From NCBI GenBank assembly GCA_021298015.1, contig JAJTGY010000036.1, positions 1 to 64,000 on the forward strand: a DNA stretch of 64,000 nucleotides. The letters run 5' to 3'. This document shows positions 15,459 to 46,311 of the stretch, in pieces (position 1 is the first letter of the stretch; each line of letters opens with the position of its first letter). A model generated the notes under the pieces. That model ran no database searches. It saw only the letters and a list, made by a program, of their open reading frames with translations, and was not told where the DNA came from. The DNA is from Flammeovirgaceae bacterium. Its GTDB lineage: Bacteria; Bacteroidota; Bacteroidia; Cytophagales; Cyclobacteriaceae. Position numbers and translations under genes: made by a program.

Positions 15459-15466
15459 GGATTTTA

Positions 15467-15508
15467 GATTTCAGATTTTCGATTACAGATTTTCGATTAC
15501 AGATTTCA
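15467..15508. repeat. 14-bp tandem repeat (three copies)
   Basis: Units GATTTCAGATTTTC (15467-15480), GATTACAGATTTTC (15481-15494) and GATTACAGATTTCA (15495-15508), with further degenerate GATTTTA-like words on both sides. It fills the only real intergenic gap inside the acyl-CoA operon. Probably replication slippage; no protein-coding or CRISPR character. Confidence 0.75.
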
Positions 15509-15519
15509 GCGTATGAATT

Positions 15520-38952: not shown

Positions 38953-39534
38953 ATGCCTATGGATTTTTTTAAATATCGAAACAAGCTGAAGCCCGAAAAG
39001 GGAAGCATATTGGTTTCTGAGCCATTCCTGCCCGATCCGAATTTTGAGCGCACGACCATTCTGCTTTGCGAGTATAACCAGGACGGGTCATTTGGATTTG
39101 TTTTGAACAAGCGGGCCGAGGCCCGGTTAGGCGAAGTGATGGAGGACTTCAAATCGTTCGATGCTCCGGTGTTTATCGGAGGACCCGTGCAGCAGGATAC
39201 GCTACATTATCTGCATCGGCTGCCCCAACTGGAAGACTCCACTGAAATTGTCAATGGAGTATTTTGGGGTGGAAATTTTGACCAATTGAGCATCCTTATT
39301 GATACGGGGCAAATCAGTCCATTGGATATCCGGTTTTTTCTGGGATACAGTGGCTGGGGCGAGGGTCAGTTGGATACGGAGTTGAAGGAGAATTCCTGGA
39401 TCGTAAGCAACCGCGTGACACCGGAGTTTGTGTTCGAGACTCTTCCGGACGAGATGTGGAAAAAGGCCCTTCAAATACTGGGCGGCCGCTATACTATTTA
39501 TTCCAATTACCCGGTAGACCCGCGCATGAACTAG
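38953..39534 (+). CDS. YqgE/AlgH-family protein
   Basis: A 193-aa DUF179 protein: KGSILVSEPFLPDPNFERTTILL, GSFGFVLNKR, FIGGPVQQDTLHYLH and FLGYSGWGEGQLDTEL. The fold is known but the biochemical role is not settled. Divergent from pdxH. Confidence 0.9.
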   Translation: MPMDFFKYRNKLKPEKGSILVSEPFLPDPNFERTTILLCEYNQDGSFGFVLNKRAEARLGEVMEDFKSFDAPVFIGGPVQQDTLHYLHRLPQLEDSTEIVNGVFWGGNFDQLSILIDTGQISPLDIRFFLGYSGWGEGQLDTELKENSWIVSNRVTPEFVFETLPDEMWKKALQILGGRYTIYSNYPVDPRMN

Positions 39535-39575
39535 ACGGGGAAATTTTTACCTTTACAATCTTAAGAGGAACCGGT

Positions 39576-41405
39576 ATGGAACAGGAGCAGGAATTGCAGG
39601 CAGGTCCTCTGGAAATGGTCGTGGCCGGGAGCACAAAGGCACCAGCAGCATCCCATGAACCGGAGGTAGAAGTAGAGGCAGATGAGTGGAAGTCGATCGA
39701 TTTTGCCGCCATGGCAAAAAAAGATTTTGTCACGCTGCTGAAAGAGTTAACCAAGGAGACGGACGTACGAAAAATCGATTTCGTGCTGAGGGAATCACGT
39801 CATCATTTTGATGAATTACGTGACCGAAGCAGGGCCGAAGCGCTATTTCGGTTTCAGGCTGAGGGCGGTTTGCCCGATGATTTTGATTATCGCCCCGATG
39901 ACGTAGATATTGCATTCGATGCTACATACCGCTTGTTGCGTGACAAGCGAAACCAGTTTTTCAAGAATCAGGAACTCCAACGGGCAGAGAATCTTTACAA
40001 AAAGCAACAATTGCTCGAGCAATTGCGCCATTTAGTTGATGGTGAAGATTCGGGTGCCGGTTTTAATGCTTTCAAAAACATACAACAGGAGTGGAAGGGT
40101 ACTGGGCCGGTGGGACCTGCTCATGCGCGTGAGCTATGGGCCAGTTATCATGCCTTGGTCGATCGGTTTTACGATCACCGAAACATTTACTTTGAGCTCA
40201 AAGAACTTGATCGTAAGAAGAATCTAGTTGCGAAGATCGAGCTGTGCGAGCGTGCTGAACAACTCGCTAAAGTTGACTCTATTCGCGAAGCGGTCAAAGA
40301 ACTAAATGAACTACACGAAGAGTTTCGCCATATCGGACCGGTGCCGGCCGAGGATAAAGAAGCCCTCTGGACTCGTTTCAAGGCTGCCTCTGATGGTGTG
40401 TATGCCAGACGGGATGCTCACGTGGAAGAACTGCAGAAACAATTGGGGGCTAATTTGCAGGCAAAGGAGCAGGTAGTTACCGAAGTGGCGGCCTTCACTA
40501 CGTTTCAATCAGACCGAATTAAGGACTGGAACCAGAAGACCCAGGAAATTCTGGCGCTCCAGAAAAAGTGGGAGAGTATTGGAGCGGTGCCGCGAGCCAA
40601 GACCAAAGACATCAATCGAAAATTTTGGGCTGCGTTTAAATCGTTTTTCAACAACAAAAGCGGTTTCTTTAAGAAACTCGACAGCGAGCGGGATGCCAAT
40701 CTGAAAAGCAAGCAGGCGCTTGTTGATCGTGCGCGTCAATTGCAGGATAGTCAGGATTGGGAGTCAACCTCGAACGAGTTAAAGCAACTGCAGGTGCAAT
40801 GGAAGGAGATCGGACCTGTGCCTGAAAAGCAGCGGGAAAAAATCTTTCAGGAATTTAAGGAAGCGTGTGATAAGTTCTTTGGTCAGCGCAGGGGTTTGAA
40901 AGAGCAGGAAGAGGCCGGTTTTGAAGAAAATCTGAAGCGGAAACAGGAAATCTGCGACCAGTTAACGAAGCATGCGGTCGAGAAATCCGGATCACTTGAC
41001 CGGCTCCACGAACTACAGGCCCAGTTCAACGAAATAGGGTTTGTTCCGCGAAAATCGATGGCTGCTATACGGCAGCGCTATAACCAGGCAGTGGAGCAAT
41101 TCATGAATTCGCTCGAGGGCGTTAGCGAAAAGGATAAACAGAAGTTCCGGCTGGAAGTTGAACTGGATGGTCTGCGGGGCGACCCACAGGGTGGACGAAA
41201 GCTGCAGCATAAGGAGCAGCACCTGCGCAAGCGCATAAGTAAGGCGGAAAATGATTTGGCCACCTTGCGAAACAATCTCGAGTTCTTTGGCCGGTCAAAA
41301 AATGCAGATAAGGTGAGAGCGGAGTTTTCGGAAAAGATCAGGCTGGCCAGCGAGGAACTGGATGCGATGAGGGCGGAGCTTAAAATCCTTCGTTCGGTTG
41401 GCTGA
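39576..41405 (+). CDS. DUF349 multi-repeat protein
   Basis: A 609-aa highly charged helical protein made of DUF349 repeats, each about 75 residues and marked by W-x-x-I/T-G-x-V/A-P, for example WKGTGPVG, FRHIGPVPAEDKEALW, WESIGAVPRAKTKDIN, WKEIGPVPEKQREKIF and FNEIGFVPRKSMAAI. The C-terminus is a coiled coil. The N-terminal acidic stretch (1-50) is disordered-looking. Function unknown. I start at ATG 39576; a -7-like TACCTTTA lies at 39549-39556. Confidence 0.85.
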   Translation: MEQEQELQAGPLEMVVAGSTKAPAASHEPEVEVEADEWKSIDFAAMAKKDFVTLLKELTKETDVRKIDFVLRESRHHFDELRDRSRAEALFRFQAEGGLPDDFDYRPDDVDIAFDATYRLLRDKRNQFFKNQELQRAENLYKKQQLLEQLRHLVDGEDSGAGFNAFKNIQQEWKGTGPVGPAHARELWASYHALVDRFYDHRNIYFELKELDRKKNLVAKIELCERAEQLAKVDSIREAVKELNELHEEFRHIGPVPAEDKEALWTRFKAASDGVYARRDAHVEELQKQLGANLQAKEQVVTEVAAFTTFQSDRIKDWNQKTQEILALQKKWESIGAVPRAKTKDINRKFWAAFKSFFNNKSGFFKKLDSERDANLKSKQALVDRARQLQDSQDWESTSNELKQLQVQWKEIGPVPEKQREKIFQEFKEACDKFFGQRRGLKEQEEAGFEENLKRKQEICDQLTKHAVEKSGSLDRLHELQAQFNEIGFVPRKSMAAIRQRYNQAVEQFMNSLEGVSEKDKQKFRLEVELDGLRGDPQGGRKLQHKEQHLRKRISKAENDLATLRNNLEFFGRSKNADKVRAEFSEKIRLASEELDAMRAELKILRSVG

Positions 41406-41410
41406 AAACC

Positions 41411-41441
41411 CTTGTAAAACTGGCATCTTCCCGTAATTTTG
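41411..41441 (+). promoter_or_regulatory. Near-consensus promoter before the tRNA-like repeats
   Basis: CTTG (41411-41414), 19-nt spacer, TAATTTTG (41434-41441): both elements fit the Bacteroidota consensus. It is directed into the 84-bp repeat array, with the expected start about 41448, and no protein gene follows on that strand for over 1.3 kb. That suggests a non-coding transcript. Confidence 0.65.
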
Positions 41442-41457
41442 CGGCTCTTTTATTGAA

Positions 41458-41699
41458 AGGATAAGCCTCCTTAGCTCATCCCGACAAAATCGGGAGGTAG
41501 AGCAACTGACGGAAAGCGTTCGCAGGAGAGGGCAGGTAGAAAGGATAAGCCTCCTTAGCTCATCCCGACAAAGTCGGGAGGTAGAGCAACTGACGGAAAG
41601 CGTTCGTAGGAGAGGGCAGGTAGACAGGATAAGCCTCCTTAGCTCATCCCGACAAAGTCGGGAGGTAGAGCAACTGACGGAAAGCGTTCGCAGGAGAGT
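41458..41699 (+). repeat. Tandem 84-bp tRNA-like repeat, 2.9 copies
   Basis: Copies begin at 41458, 41542 and 41626 (exact 84-nt period) and differ at only a few bases. Each holds a tRNA-style 5' half: GCCTCCT acceptor strand, TAGCTCA, then GGTAGAGCAACTGAC, as in normal tRNAs. A hairpin (TCCCGA..TCGGGA, 41479-41495 in copy 1) is inserted in the D-loop. The anticodon arm is replaced by a short GACGGAAAGCGTTCGCAG, then AGGAGAG, which can pair with CTCCT of the acceptor. There is no usable anticodon and no normal T-arm. A decayed and amplified tRNA gene, or a structured tRNA-like RNA. The third copy ends 10 nt short. Confidence 0.7.
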
Positions 41700-41786
41700 A
41701 ATCAAATGGTTACAGGTATGTAGCCCTTTTTTATCTAGGAATTGTTATCAGAGAGCTTTGAAAAACCCGTTTCAAAATTTCCGTTT

Positions 41787-42199
41787 TTATTTTTTTGGTT
41801 TTTTTGATTGGGGCACGGGTGGTTTTGTTCGGTTGTTGTTCACTTCATCCGGTTTTTCGGCTCGGCTGCGGTTGTTTTTTTTTGCCAACCGGGCCCACCT
41901 ATCCCACCAATGGTTTCTGTTTTTACAAGAACGATGCCCTTGGAAGCTCAGCCGATCGATGAGCTGGTCCTCCACTTGTTCATCGCTCAGGCCAAAGGTG
42001 TGCCGGAGGAACAGCATCTTGAGTATGATCTCGAAACTGATCGGGGGGGGAGGCCGCCTTTTCCGCCTTGGGTCTTGTCGATGCCTTTCACCAAGCCGAC
42101 CAGCGCTTGCCAGTTGACGAGTTTGTTTGTTGCTGAAAGGGTGGCCACCGCCTTACTTATTTTTCTCCTGCGGCTGTAACTGAGAACCGCATCCATCAA
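41787..42199 (-). pseudogene. IS5-family transposase remnant
   Basis: Minus-strand pieces match the IS5 transposase N-terminus: NKLVNWQALVGLVKGIDK, then FEIILKMLFLRHTFGLSDEQ and VEDQLIDRLSFQ. The first lies in a different frame from the others; the shift falls on a run of eight C (42043-42050). After RLSFQ the family sequence stops, so most of the catalytic domain is deleted. Non-functional. Confidence 0.75.
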
Positions 42200-42780
42200 G
42201 CTGAGTTATCTGTTGTTTTTCTCCATGAACAAATTTAACAACCCGCTGGCTTTTGTCGGGTTTTACTCATGGGTTTTTCAAAGATCTCTTTTTGTAAACT
42301 CCCACTGGGGTGTCACTCACGATCTTACGGGCCTAAGTTTCCCAAGGTTTGCCGGGGGTGAGATGCTTGCTGAAGGGAGACTCGAACCCTTCCACGACCG
42401 GTTGGTGGGGGCTAATGTAGCCATGCTTTGCTGCACGGATATTTAGGGTTTTTTGCTCATTTCCTGGCACGTGGTTTCACGCCAGGTTCGCTAATTTCAG
42501 CAAAATTGCTACGGATTTTATACGACTCAAGGTTTTTCAGCAGGCCCAAAGCACATTTTACATCAGCGGTAAAAAAATAAATATCGGATTATTCTAACTT
42601 TACTTACGTATGTAATAATTATAGCAATATACTTAAGTGTCAGACACCCACATGAATATGACAGGAAGAGTTTTTAAATCGGAATGCAAAGCACTCACAG
42701 CAGGGGCCGATAGGCGAGAAAAAGAGACAGGGGTGGCATTGGGTAGCCGTTTTCGGGTTCAGCCGTCAGTAATCGTGCGT
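42200..42780. other. Intergenic region upstream of the T9SS gene
   Basis: About 580 bp with no gene I can support. It contains a hairpin AACCCG..CGGGTT near 42240-42262, a short block (42369-42400) that looks like a reverse-strand tRNA T-arm but has no matching tRNA, and an AT-rich tract from 42560 on where TAACTTTA could be a -7 box. The 49 codons from 42637 that extend the T9SS gene upstream lack signal-peptide character and are treated as non-coding. Confidence 0.5.
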
Positions 42781-45700
42781 ATGATTAAACATATACTGGT
42801 AACCGCTTTCCTTTTGTGCACGGTTGCTCATTTGCAAGCTCAGGGAATTCCATCTAAAGAGGAGTTACAGAATGCCGCAACAAAATTAAATCAAGACACT
42901 GTTCATGCCGGAGGTTACACGATCACCATCGGTGATCTGGTCAACGAGAGGAAGAAGAATGGGATCACAATTGCGGCCATCTACAAGTACGAGATAAAGG
43001 GGCCGGAGGTGGAACCCACGGGTGAAAATCCTTCACCAGATGAAAAAACAGATGAAGCCTTGCTTCAAATCTATGATTTAAAGCATATCAATATCTCACA
43101 AGTGTGTGCTGGCGTAGATGCCATGGGCAAGCCAGAAAGTAGTAATGTCTCAAACGACAAGAAGTTTTCGAAGCTGGTACGTGATGCCTATACACCGGAA
43201 TTTAATACCTTCATATTGAAAAGTTTTGTGGAGTATAAATTAGGCTTGGGTACCGGGACGCCTGTCGATCTATTGGAAGACATGCATGGAGACAACCTTA
43301 TTTCTGTCATTAATACACAGTACGCTGAGGACAGTGAGAACTCGGTCATTGACTTCGAGATAAACCACCCTGAAAAAACCAGGTTATCTTTTCCAGTACT
43401 TTATGGGGGTGAGGTAATTACCGGTGGCAGCAGCATAGATGTTCCGAGAACTGATTACAACGTAACCGATTGTGATGCAAAACCTGATCTTAATGACCAG
43501 AAGTTATTATGCAAAGATTTGAATCAGCTGAGGCAAAGAAACTATAGTGAAGATGAGTATCTATTAGAACAAATCGAAAAATTCGACTTGCAAAAAATGC
43601 ATGTATTGAAAATTTTCGATGATTATGTTAAATTAGAAAAGTATGATCATGACAATACTGACCAGAGTTTCTCCGGCACAAAGTCCGCTATTGTAGCCTA
43701 TTCACCTGCAAACAATCCCGCTAGAACAGGCTATGCCAGGTCACAAACGGTGTTTGTCTATGATCCAGACGGTGATGGTAAACATGATGTGTTGATTATT
43801 CTGCTTACGAGAAGAGAACGGGATCCCAACTTTTTTTTGAGAGGTTCGGAGGCATATAGTCCGGATATTACAATTGGTGCTAACACGCGGGCATTTGCCA
43901 GGTTTGTTGCTGCTTTAGAGGTTAATGGAAACATCGGTACTTCTTTTTCCGAAAACTGGGAACATATTCATGCCAGCCAGATGATCGCGTTCGATGGTGG
44001 CAAATCGTCATACCTATACAATGCGATGGGATCCAATTTGACGGATCATGAAGGAGTTCTTGAAGATCAAGTTTTTGAAACCTTTTGGATTGCCTTACCG
44101 CTTTACATGGCTTTTTATCAGAAGAGCGAAACAGCACCGCCAGATGGATTCAAAATTGAGGTGTTATCACCTCAGGCTGATGACGAGGTCATAATGTGCG
44201 GGGAATATTTTATTATGTGGTATGACAATATTATGGTTGAGAATGTAGGCATTTCTAATGACAAGGTGGATATTGAACTGTTTGATATGTCGGGAAACAA
44301 GGTTAAACATGTTGCCTCCGGGGTATCGGGGGATAACGTGTACAAATGGCAGGTGCCACAGCCAATTGAGATCCCCGGCTGGAGTTCATCTATGAAATAC
44401 CGAATAAAGATCACTTCTCCCCACACCGGAAAGTACGCTACTTCAGAAGATTTTAGTTTACAACTTCCTCAAGATAGTTCTGCAATTGTTCCAATTATCA
44501 GCGGTGATCTGCTCAATATATCAAGTTTTATTGCATCATCAGCCCCATGCTTTGGTGGGGGTGAAACCGTGGTGAAAATAAATGATAAAGGTTGGATATT
44601 GGGGTATTTCCCAACCGGGCAGGGGAAGTTTATGACATTTGTGATCACCACAAAAGAAGGAAACTTTGATCTGGATCGATACATAGAAGTAGGGCTTTTT
44701 AACGGACGGCCATCCGATATTTCTTCAACCGGAGAGGTACTCATCAATGTGGGTGACGTGGCAGAGCGCTTTATCTATGATGCCGAAACAAAAAGCTACT
44801 CGTCCAAGCCTGGTGCGTTGTCTATTTACGCAGATGCTTTTGCTACCGCTATAGAAGGGGATTACGTTGCCGCGGTGCTTACTCTAAAAAAAGGGGAGGA
44901 TGGCCTTGTGAGAAACAAAGTCTCTTATTTTTTTGATCCTGCGCAGTTTCAAAACGATCTTGATATTCACGATAGGTATAGGCGAGCAACGATCAAAAAC
45001 CTGGCTTCAAAAGTTGCTGAGCCGGTAGCTTCGCTATATGCACATTATTATAACCGAAACAGCCAGCTAAACGATGTTACCGCTGCAGGGGTGGGGGTGG
45101 GCTTTTCCTACGCGCCTGATGTTGGTGTAACTGGGGCTGAATTTGGTGAGCCGGTTATGCTCAATCAGTACCCCATTATTCATGATCCGAACATTCAAGC
45201 CGGGGCCGAAAAAACACGAACGCTTGTAGGTCTTATTCCAGGCGAGGCGAATAGCATCAATAATGTTGGTGGTGTAGCAGGTCAATGGTGGAATCCGGGT
45301 AACAACATCATAAAAGGTTTTTACACCTCCGATGGTTGCCGAAATGCCTCTGGAGATGAGGATTCGTGGGCGAAGATTAATCCACCAAAAGAAGTAACGG
45401 ATTTGTACAGCAAACCTGACTTAGTGCCGATTGTTGTTCGGCAGATTAACGACCTGGGGTATGTGGTGGGCACGTACATGCCGCCATCTTCTCAGCTTAA
45501 TCACGGGTATGTGTGGCAGGCATGTTCTTGCACATCAGGAACTTTTACAGACCTGGATGAATTGCTTAAAGATCATTATCAAACGGACTGGGATTTTGTG
45601 AATGCAATCTCCATCAACAACAGCAATTATGTGGTAGGCAATGCCGAAGTGGATGGTAAAAGATTTATCTACAGAGCTAAACTGCCCTTGGCAAATTCTA

Positions 45701-46311
45701 TTTGTTGCGACAATGACGAAATTTCTTTCAGGTTGAGTACCCCCCCGATTAATCAGGTGCAATTTGAAATGTTTCAAAATAACGGTACCGAGGTAATTCA
45801 GACGCTTACACCCATCAAAGGTGCCGACAATCACTACTACCTGAAATGTGCTTTTTCTGTTTTAAAAGGGAAGACCACGCGCTTTGTGGAGAAAATTGAT
45901 CCCAACTCGTTGTACTCGGGCAGCGCGGTAAAATATTCCGTATCGGTAACCGATGATGCGTTGACGGTTAACCCGGACGGTGACAGTCAGACTTTTGATG
46001 TGAGTGGTAAAAAGTATTGTGGAAGGATATTCCCTGTACAAGCGGAAGTGTTTCAGGTTCAACCATCATCTGCATTGGGCAAATCTACTGCTGCCTACCC
46101 GGTGCCTGCAACCGAAAAGTTAAATGTGAGGCTGGAGAATACGAATTTAGCAAAGCTTGTTATCCGCGATCTGATGGGCAAAATTGTGTTGCAAAAGGAA
46201 AATGCCTCCGCGCAAGAGGAGTTGAGTATTGAGGAGCTCACCCCCGGCATTTACATATTGGAGATTCATACCGCCACTGGCGTACAGGTGAGCAGAATAG
46301 TGAAGCGCTAG
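42781..46311 (+). CDS. Large T9SS-secreted protein with HAF-like repeats
   Basis: A 1176-aa secreted protein. A signal peptide (MIKHILVTAFLLCTVAHLQAQ) is followed by a region of about 430 residues that I do not recognise, including an EF-like DPDGDGKHD. Next come a Kre9/KNH-like Ig module (about 458-560; EVLSPQADDEVIMCGEYFIMWYD), and beta-propeller-like HAF motifs (INDKGWILGYF, INDLGYVVGTY, INNSNYVVG) at about 570-980. A type A T9SS sorting domain (YPVPATEKLNVRLEN ... PGIYILEIH) occupies the last 75 residues. It should cross the outer membrane and be surface-anchored or released. I start at ATG 42781, where the signal peptide begins. Residues about 570-860 have a close paralogue at 63024. Confidence 0.85.
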   Translation: MIKHILVTAFLLCTVAHLQAQGIPSKEELQNAATKLNQDTVHAGGYTITIGDLVNERKKNGITIAAIYKYEIKGPEVEPTGENPSPDEKTDEALLQIYDLKHINISQVCAGVDAMGKPESSNVSNDKKFSKLVRDAYTPEFNTFILKSFVEYKLGLGTGTPVDLLEDMHGDNLISVINTQYAEDSENSVIDFEINHPEKTRLSFPVLYGGEVITGGSSIDVPRTDYNVTDCDAKPDLNDQKLLCKDLNQLRQRNYSEDEYLLEQIEKFDLQKMHVLKIFDDYVKLEKYDHDNTDQSFSGTKSAIVAYSPANNPARTGYARSQTVFVYDPDGDGKHDVLIILLTRRERDPNFFLRGSEAYSPDITIGANTRAFARFVAALEVNGNIGTSFSENWEHIHASQMIAFDGGKSSYLYNAMGSNLTDHEGVLEDQVFETFWIALPLYMAFYQKSETAPPDGFKIEVLSPQADDEVIMCGEYFIMWYDNIMVENVGISNDKVDIELFDMSGNKVKHVASGVSGDNVYKWQVPQPIEIPGWSSSMKYRIKITSPHTGKYATSEDFSLQLPQDSSAIVPIISGDLLNISSFIASSAPCFGGGETVVKINDKGWILGYFPTGQGKFMTFVITTKEGNFDLDRYIEVGLFNGRPSDISSTGEVLINVGDVAERFIYDAETKSYSSKPGALSIYADAFATAIEGDYVAAVLTLKKGEDGLVRNKVSYFFDPAQFQNDLDIHDRYRRATIKNLASKVAEPVASLYAHYYNRNSQLNDVTAAGVGVGFSYAPDVGVTGAEFGEPVMLNQYPIIHDPNIQAGAEKTRTLVGLIPGEANSINNVGGVAGQWWNPGNNIIKGFYTSDGCRNASGDEDSWAKINPPKEVTDLYSKPDLVPIVVRQINDLGYVVGTYMPPSSQLNHGYVWQACSCTSGTFTDLDELLKDHYQTDWDFVNAISINNSNYVVGNAEVDGKRFIYRAKLPLANSICCDNDEISFRLSTPPINQVQFEMFQNNGTEVIQTLTPIKGADNHYYLKCAFSVLKGKTTRFVEKIDPNSLYSGSAVKYSVSVTDDALTVNPDGDSQTFDVSGKKYCGRIFPVQAEVFQVQPSSALGKSTAAYPVPATEKLNVRLENTNLAKLVIRDLMGKIVLQKENASAQEELSIEELTPGIYILEIHTATGVQVSRIVKR

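Follow-up and report, generated by a model that had tools for sequence, protein, structure and literature searches.

Tandem hairpin-bearing fragments of tRNA-Thr in a Bacteroidota genome and a proposed family of tRNA-nesting elements

Behind a promoter in the genome of a Flammeovirgaceae bacterium (Bacteroidota, Cyclobacteriaceae; GCA_021298015.1, contig JAJTGY010000036.1) stand several short, tRNA-like units in tandem, each of them interrupted by a hairpin, and the locus raises the question of whether such an array is a conserved regulatory RNA, a decaying tRNA gene or a part of something mobile. The window referred to below is the whole stretch of DNA that was analysed, i.e. the 64,000 nucleotides from position 1 to 64,000 of the forward strand of this contig.

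Anatomy and genomic setting of the array

Tandem Repeats Finder delimits the array at 41455-41698, with a period of 84, 2.9 copies and 97% matches; the period and copy number given in the initial annotation stand, and its description of the copies as exact has to be softened to near-identical. All three 84-nt units are derived from the front end of tRNA-Thr(UGU), each being made up of tRNA nucleotides 1-14, a hairpin in place of the D-loop nucleotides 15-17, nucleotides 18-32 and a tail (Table 1). Both flanks of the hairpin match the tRNA exactly, which bears out what had been read from the letters alone, namely a tRNA-like start of each unit, a hairpin lodged inside the D-loop (found in all three units) and a tRNA origin for the array as a whole. 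The hairpin has the form TCCCGAC-loop-GTCGGGA, with a stem of 7 bp that is shortened to 6 bp in unit 1.

ARAGORN calls no tRNA gene on the array; every unit stops short of nucleotide 33 and does not make a cloverleaf with anticodon and T arms. No Rfam family matches the array at the gathering score, and a lax search of 41300-41850 returned a single chance match that lies outside it; a known Rfam RNA was accordingly dropped as an identity for the array. At 16 of the 116 homologous hairpin-copy loci listed in the public-genome scan described below, Rfam gave tRNA matches only. Predicted folding of a single unit is mildly stronger than that of shuffled sequences (z -1.9, 9 of 200 shuffles as good), and that of the whole array clearly so (z -3.1, 0 of 200). 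It had also been claimed that a short stem replaces the anticodon and T-arms, and that an AGGAG able to pair with the acceptor strand is kept. Neither is borne out as conserved: the unit is a front-end fragment in which no conserved closing stem was found, and over 71 homologous units the longest helix between the 3' stretch and the acceptor strand averages 4.25, as against 4.17 after permutation (236 of 1000 permutations as high), with individual values of 5 in the window and 4 in the unit of the relative G007. The closing stem was dropped because this pairing is not above the permuted level.

Table 1. Features of the array and its immediate surroundings in the window
Feature	Position	Strand	Basis
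DUF349 gene, syntenic marker by which the tRNA-Thr locus is recognized across the genus	39456..41405	+	Pfam PF03993, E 3.8e-92
Bacteroidota-type promoter: TTG 41412-41414, 19-nt spacer, TAATTTTG 41434-41441	41412..41441	+	sequence
Unit 1, tRNA-Thr nt 1-14	41465..41478	+	14/14 match to tRNA-Thr(UGU)
Unit 1, hairpin TCCCGACAAAATCGGGA replacing tRNA nt 15-17	41479..41495	+	palindrome search, sequence
Unit 1, tRNA-Thr nt 18-32	41496..41510	+	match to tRNA-Thr(UGU)
Unit 1, 38-nt tail reaching unit 2	41511..41548	+	sequence, repeat period
Unit 2, tRNA-Thr nt 1-14	41549..41562	+	match to tRNA-Thr(UGU)
Unit 2, hairpin TCCCGACAAAGTCGGGA	41563..41579	+	palindrome search, sequence
Unit 2, tRNA-Thr nt 18-32	41580..41594	+	match to tRNA-Thr(UGU)
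Unit 2, 38-nt tail	41595..41632	+	sequence, repeat period
Unit 3, tRNA-Thr nt 1-14	41633..41646	+	match to tRNA-Thr(UGU)
Unit 3, hairpin TCCCGACAAAGTCGGGA	41647..41663	+	palindrome search, sequence
Unit 3, tRNA-Thr nt 18-32	41664..41678	+	match to tRNA-Thr(UGU)
Unit 3, tail shortened to 20 nt; expected intact tRNA-Thr absent after it	41679..41698	+	sequence, locus comparison
Terminator-like hairpin and T-run directly 3' of the array	41708..41731	+	terminator scan

The promoter was not picked up by a sigma-70-type scan, which Bacteroidota-type promoters are expected to escape. The terminator scan found two candidates in the whole stretch, as against 1.0 expected in shuffles, and the one that follows the array resembles, as judged by eye, the tRNA terminators of relatives. 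Elsewhere the window holds a 14-bp tandem repeat of 3.4 copies (15460-15509) and, on the forward strand at 42637-46311, the gene for a large protein whose C-terminus carries a secretion-sorting domain (Por_Secre_tail, E 5.4e-13).

To place the array in its setting we compared the loci downstream of the DUF349 gene, for which 51 of 58 genomes gave a match; the best 30 of these 51, the window included, were read. An intact tRNA-Thr(UGU) follows the promoter in 25 of the 30, the five exceptions being the window, G004 (at a contig end) and G006, G014 and G023 (no tRNA-Thr there). A similar promoter arrangement, recognized by eye, precedes the intact tRNA-Thr in the congeneric loci, and by this comparison the array promoter is read as the tRNA-Thr(UGU) locus's own: the near-consensus promoter (TTG-19-TAATTTTG) reported in the initial annotation is real, and only its being dedicated to the array has to be withdrawn. 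G007, the nearest relative and 98% identical over the DUF349 stretch, carries a single unit ahead of an intact tRNA-Thr; the window has three units with no intact tRNA-Thr after them. Fragments accompany the intact tRNA-Thr at four of the 25 loci, lying upstream of it in G007, G020 and G032 (by eye, the palindromes of the latter two differ from it and lie in the D and anticodon regions) and downstream, in three copies with a palindrome-like insert in the T-loop, in G024; none was detected at the remaining 21. In G009 a GIY-YIG gene lies 40 nt downstream of tRNA-Thr, with no fragment detected, and G061, from outside the 30, combines a hairpin copy, a GIY-YIG frame interrupted by a single stop and an intact tRNA-Thr. 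One conserved site is found in this way with fragments that are accompanied by a nuclease or stand without one, and at most loci with neither. In the window the terminator-like hairpin is followed by a weak transposase-like remnant, a short ORF on the reverse strand (41787-42017) whose match to the DUF772 transposase domain (E 5.9e-4) falls below the curated cut-off; judged by this match, it was perhaps left by an insertion sequence where the DNA beyond the array is rearranged. The sequence downstream of tRNA-Thr in G007 sits on another contig of the window's genome.

A tRNA search of the window's genome gave 36 matches. ARAGORN typed 35 distinct tRNAs in the loci taken from this genome, and neither Thr(UGU) nor Asn is among them; with the assembly in 115 contigs, both may simply have been missed from it. 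The only tRNA-Asn(GUU) seen in the assembly (C45:27882-27970; L004 483-571) has a D-loop hairpin and is otherwise complete, scoring 35 bits with Rfam and receiving no call from ARAGORN. Since in G007 two hairpin fragments precede an intact tRNA-Asn, the C45 version looks like a recombinant between fragment and gene or an assembly chimera. There is no GIY-YIG match in the window's contig; full elements occur in the window's genome at tRNA-Met and tRNA-Ser. On C102 (L302), C20 (L052), C81 (L058), C103 (L033), C88 (L029) and C45 (L004), tRNA genes lie no more than about 300 bases from where the contig ends, as is expected if repeats break a short-read assembly.

Hairpin copies and a small GIY-YIG nuclease beside tRNA genes

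Searching two genomes by palindrome alone, we found 12 palindromes of the type TCCCGA..TCGGGA in the window's genome and 16 in G007. At least one flank matches a tRNA by automatic search in 9 and 10 of these, respectively, and four more (three in G007, one in the window's genome) were recognized by eye as T-loop insertions beside tRNA-Gly. The D-loop junction in this set is exact (nucleotides 14/18). A palindrome inside an open frame common to both genomes (C58 in the window's genome, C13 in G007) was treated as coincidence. A cobalamin riboswitch of the window's genome (C30:36379-36395; L317) carries a TCCCGACTAAGTCGGGA palindrome in one of its variable regions.

The D-loop pattern is present in 11 of the 96 genomes of the relatives' set (the window's included), all of them in one genus out of 32, and in 12 of the 396 genomes of the class, in 10 of 198 genera; a reversed control pattern had no match in the 396 class genomes. 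A scan of public genomes, with a pattern that fixes the hairpin stem and the D-loop position, so that exactness in this set is built in, returned at least 134 sites on at least 116 contigs, and the 116 contigs listed fall in Bacteroidota (113), Pseudomonadota (2) and Planctomycetota (1). Similar units thus occur in the genus, the class and public genomes, quite contrary to the possibility, raised at the outset, that relatives have none. As the contigs listed include cultured isolates of Algoriphagus, Flavobacterium, Winogradskyella, Gelidibacter and Belliella, the hairpin copies are not a metagenome artefact. Among the matches listed they extend over Flavobacteriales, Cytophagales, Bacteroidales and Chitinophagales and adjoin tRNAs of 14 anticodons. 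A same-strand tRNA matches the copy at 11 or more of its first 14 nucleotides at 110 of the 134 sites listed (96 of them exact), with the copy upstream in 104 and downstream in 6. The other 24 sites listed comprise four with a poorer-matching tRNA and 20 with none in range, 14 of the latter having less than 450 nt of contig downstream; the three contigs from outside Bacteroidota likewise have no tRNA in range. A viral source was dropped, since the pattern has 0 matches in viral contigs and tblastn with one nuclease of the Bacteroidota family as query gave no phage match at 1e-5.

Between hairpin copy and tRNA there is often a gene for a GIY-YIG protein of about 95 amino acids, with an intact nuclease domain in three representatives of full elements (PF01541, E 3.6e-12 to 5.3e-19). 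With a profile of ten nucleases, nine of which come from hairpin-copy loci themselves, such a gene was found within 1.5 kb at 37 of the 116 loci listed (295 kb), as against one in the 466 kb beyond 2 kb; a control profile built from eight nucleases that are not tRNA-linked, used at a laxer cut-off, gave 33 loci near and 1 far among the same loci. The gene lies between copy and tRNA at 18 of the 116, and all 51 nuclease stretches at the loci listed, counted per site, are on the strand of the copy. At 79 of the 116 no nuclease gene was found within 1.5 kb, some of these loci ending at a contig end. In four congeneric genomes, leaving out eight hits in open frames of about 460-600 aa that are UvrC- or polymerase-like by size, 11 of 24 small GIY-YIG stretches lie at most 200 nt from a tRNA, all on its strand (per genome, P 5e-9, 1e-5, 0.016 and 9e-5), and 13 are more than 200 nt from any tRNA, three of them being extra tandem copies.

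A further set was assembled from nuclease and tRNA, the hairpin not being a criterion: 21 loci, from nuclease hits with the same ten-member profile in seven genomes, of which one has no tRNA on the strand, leaving 20 nuclease-tRNA pairs. In 17 of the 20, one of them recognized by eye, the nuclease gene has on its far side a fragment of the tRNA with which it is paired; the three pairs without a fragment include one at a contig end. Where the nuclease is upstream of the tRNA the fragment begins at nucleotide 1 or 3 (5/5), and where it is downstream the fragment runs to the last nucleotide (10/11; a twelfth case was read by eye). Many fragments carry palindromic inserts of differing sequence at the D, anticodon or T loops, and in several 3' fragments the insert breaks the T-loop sequence. 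Tandem copies of nuclease plus fragment are present at tRNA-Leu, His and Val, and tandem expansion of fragment units is recurrent. Three to five units, consisting of a fragment or of a fragment plus nuclease, adjoin tRNA-Val, Gly, Asp, Leu and His at L165, L175, L307, L309 and L310.

To examine the relationships of the nucleases we used a tree of 58 of 60 proteins (70 aa or more), which rests on few columns and has many open forks. One branch, with support 100/99, separates 49 rows, including 44 of the 45 tRNA-linked nucleases, from nine others, of which eight lack a tRNA link. Contig-end and tandem copies are among the five rows without such a link that fall on the tRNA side. The tRNA-linked nucleases are placed by this tree in one clade, within which they cluster by tRNA isotype: the isotype labels require 15 changes on it, against a mean of 27.3 and a minimum of 24 in 300 shufflings. 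In nine of 12 nuclease pairs dN/dS is 0.10-0.26, the other three not being estimable, and these values indicate purifying selection. The nearest solved relatives by sequence are UPF0213-type small GIY-YIG proteins (1ywl, E 0.003; 1zg2, E 0.1), which are of similar size but only weakly similar to the tRNA-linked nucleases.

A cut-and-repair proposal and its alternatives

The array is, in our judgement, probably a derivative, amplified in tandem and devoid of a nuclease gene, of a family of very small selfish elements of Bacteroidota that nest at tRNA genes and for which we propose steps of cutting and repair. The family is apparently widespread in this phylum and undescribed: among the open-licence papers listed by full-text search, we found no title or opening of an abstract that speaks of hairpin-capped units or of bacterial GIY-YIG genes between a tRNA and its fragment. 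In the full form of the element the nuclease gene shares a strand with an intact tRNA on one side of it and a fragment of that tRNA on the other, so that the host keeps a functional tRNA. Elements on the 5' side have a fragment that starts at or near nucleotide 1 and those on the 3' side a fragment that extends to the last nucleotide, and palindromes of varied sequence often occupy the fragment's D, anticodon or T loop. The nuclease would cut the loop DNA of its own tRNA gene, and repair templated by the element would spread the element, restore an intact tRNA and expand the units in tandem; a palindrome would take the cut site out of the fragment and so disarm it. In the window the nuclease gene would have been lost and the intact tRNA-Thr removed by a later rearrangement. 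That the array is the end of a mobile element was one of the options of the initial annotation and the one closest to this reading; of the regulator or decoy role that it also named, our results give no sign.

We infer the cutting, repair, restoration, disarming and tandem expansion from analogy with two systems. In T-even phages the free-standing GIY-YIG homing endonuclease SegB makes cuts within tRNA genes, and a tRNA segment is amplified in tandem only when the enzyme is active (PMC13096335). Its motif RAWTSGAAC, which 23 of 83 cut sites contain, is a help but no strict requirement (PMC13096335). As in the Bacteroidota elements, a GIY-YIG nuclease adjoins tRNA genes and tandem segmental units arise; moreover, RAWTSGAAC is, on our own reading, the reverse complement of a T-loop, the site at which palindromes break several of the Bacteroidota 3' fragments. 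SegB differs in being phage-borne, and the portions of its description drawn on here mention no loop-hairpinned tRNA fragments (PMC13096335). In the fungal mitochondrial mORFs (Allomyces atp6, Glomus atp9) an endonuclease ORF sits in the host gene and brings a duplicated gene end that keeps this gene complete, the native end being displaced (PMC3630166). Here too an endonuclease gene is combined with a duplicated end of a host gene that stays complete, but the hosts are mitochondrial protein genes rather than tRNA genes of bacterial chromosomes, and the parts of that account available to us mention no palindromes in the displaced end (PMC3630166).

Several observations temper the proposal, among them the absence of a GIY-YIG match from the window's contig, the three of 20 pairs that show no fragment, the 13 of 24 small GIY-YIG stretches more than 200 nt from any tRNA, and the SegB motif's presence at only 23 of 83 cut sites. 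As 79 of the 116 loci listed have no nuclease gene within 1.5 kb, the mini-units could arise by another route. By eye, promoter and leader are duplicated together with the tRNA in G061 and at the tRNA-Met of the window's genome, and the intact copy there should still carry any cut site, which counts against the scheme. We put forward, tentatively and as somewhat less probable than its failure, a more specific version: that these are undescribed mobile elements whose isotype-specific GIY-YIG nucleases cut tRNA loop apices, that they nest between a restored tRNA and a hairpin-capped fragment, and that arrays like the present one are non-autonomous satellites moved and expanded in trans by the nucleases of relatives.

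A homing-type derivative is to us the best reading, preferred over a conserved regulatory RNA. In the latter the upstream front-end copy, as a leader RNA, would vie with the tRNA's own 5' strand for the 3' acceptor strand and so tune tRNA maturation, and the hairpin would guide folding. Thermodynamic folding of 61 real units does predict that the copy holds the 3' acceptor strand with a mean probability of 0.61 and the tRNA's own strand with 0.18, compared with 0.84 for the tRNA alone, and the copies listed keep the acceptor sequence of their own tRNA; however, any front-end duplicate would compete likewise, and the folding model leaves aside co-transcriptional folding and RNase P. The own-strand value is 0.183 with the real hairpin, 0.095 with the native D-loop (P 0.004, 41/61) and 0.105 with one shuffled hairpin per unit (P 0.002, 45/61), from which the model hints that the palindromes might insulate the tRNA from mispairing. 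We consider a leader role unlikely in view of its patchy presence in the class and at the tRNA-Thr loci, the loss from the window of the very tRNA to be regulated, and the mirror-image 3' fragments downstream of tRNAs, to which such a role does not apply.

Alternatively, palindromic repeats of Bacteroidota might insert unaided into the loops of structured RNAs and be tolerated only in duplicated tRNA fragments, the link with the nuclease being secondary. The filling of equivalent loops by different palindromes, the hairpin copies listed that mostly have no nuclease gene found nearby, and the occurrence of TCCCGA..TCGGGA in an RNase P RNA as well as in the cobalamin riboswitch would all suit this. 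The RNase P palindrome is, however, also present with one mismatch in the window's genome, and in other relatives the helix that bears it varies like an ordinary helix tip, for which reason it was dropped as proof of hairpin mobility. Together with a tRNA flank at 19 of 28 palindromes by automatic search and at four more by eye in the two genomes, the exact D-loop junction and the strong far-side rule seen with the nuclease, this makes unaided insertion improbable as well. Short palindromes lodged in genes, as here, are also known as Rickettsia palindromic elements and mitochondrial double-hairpin elements; neither is known to be tied to the apices of tRNA loops or to any nuclease gene. Plain decay, in which slippage or unequal crossover doubled the tRNA front end and the copies drifted, would fit near-identical tandem units and the loss of the intact tRNA in the window but is very hard to credit, the same hairpin recurring at the same nucleotides in four orders and 14 anticodons among the matches listed, in a scan whose pattern fixed stem and position.

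The homing-type reading bears on a more general problem, for tRNA genes are essential and nearly invariant, and a parasite inside one has to leave it functional. These elements suggest a way to do so that needs no splicing: the tRNA stays whole to one side of the element, and the fragment to its other side is disarmed. If true, the proposal would account for a group of small GIY-YIG genes and incomplete tRNAs in Bacteroidota genomes, may help to explain assembly breaks at tRNA loci, and would make the cut-and-amplify process, lately demonstrated for phage SegB, accessible in a bacterial system.

Palindrome-bearing fragments can also cause false tRNA calls. One such call arose in the set of 20 pairs, at L305 (935-1015), where ARAGORN reports a tRNA-Ser inside a palindrome-bearing 3' fragment that was recognized by eye as belonging to tRNA-Leu.
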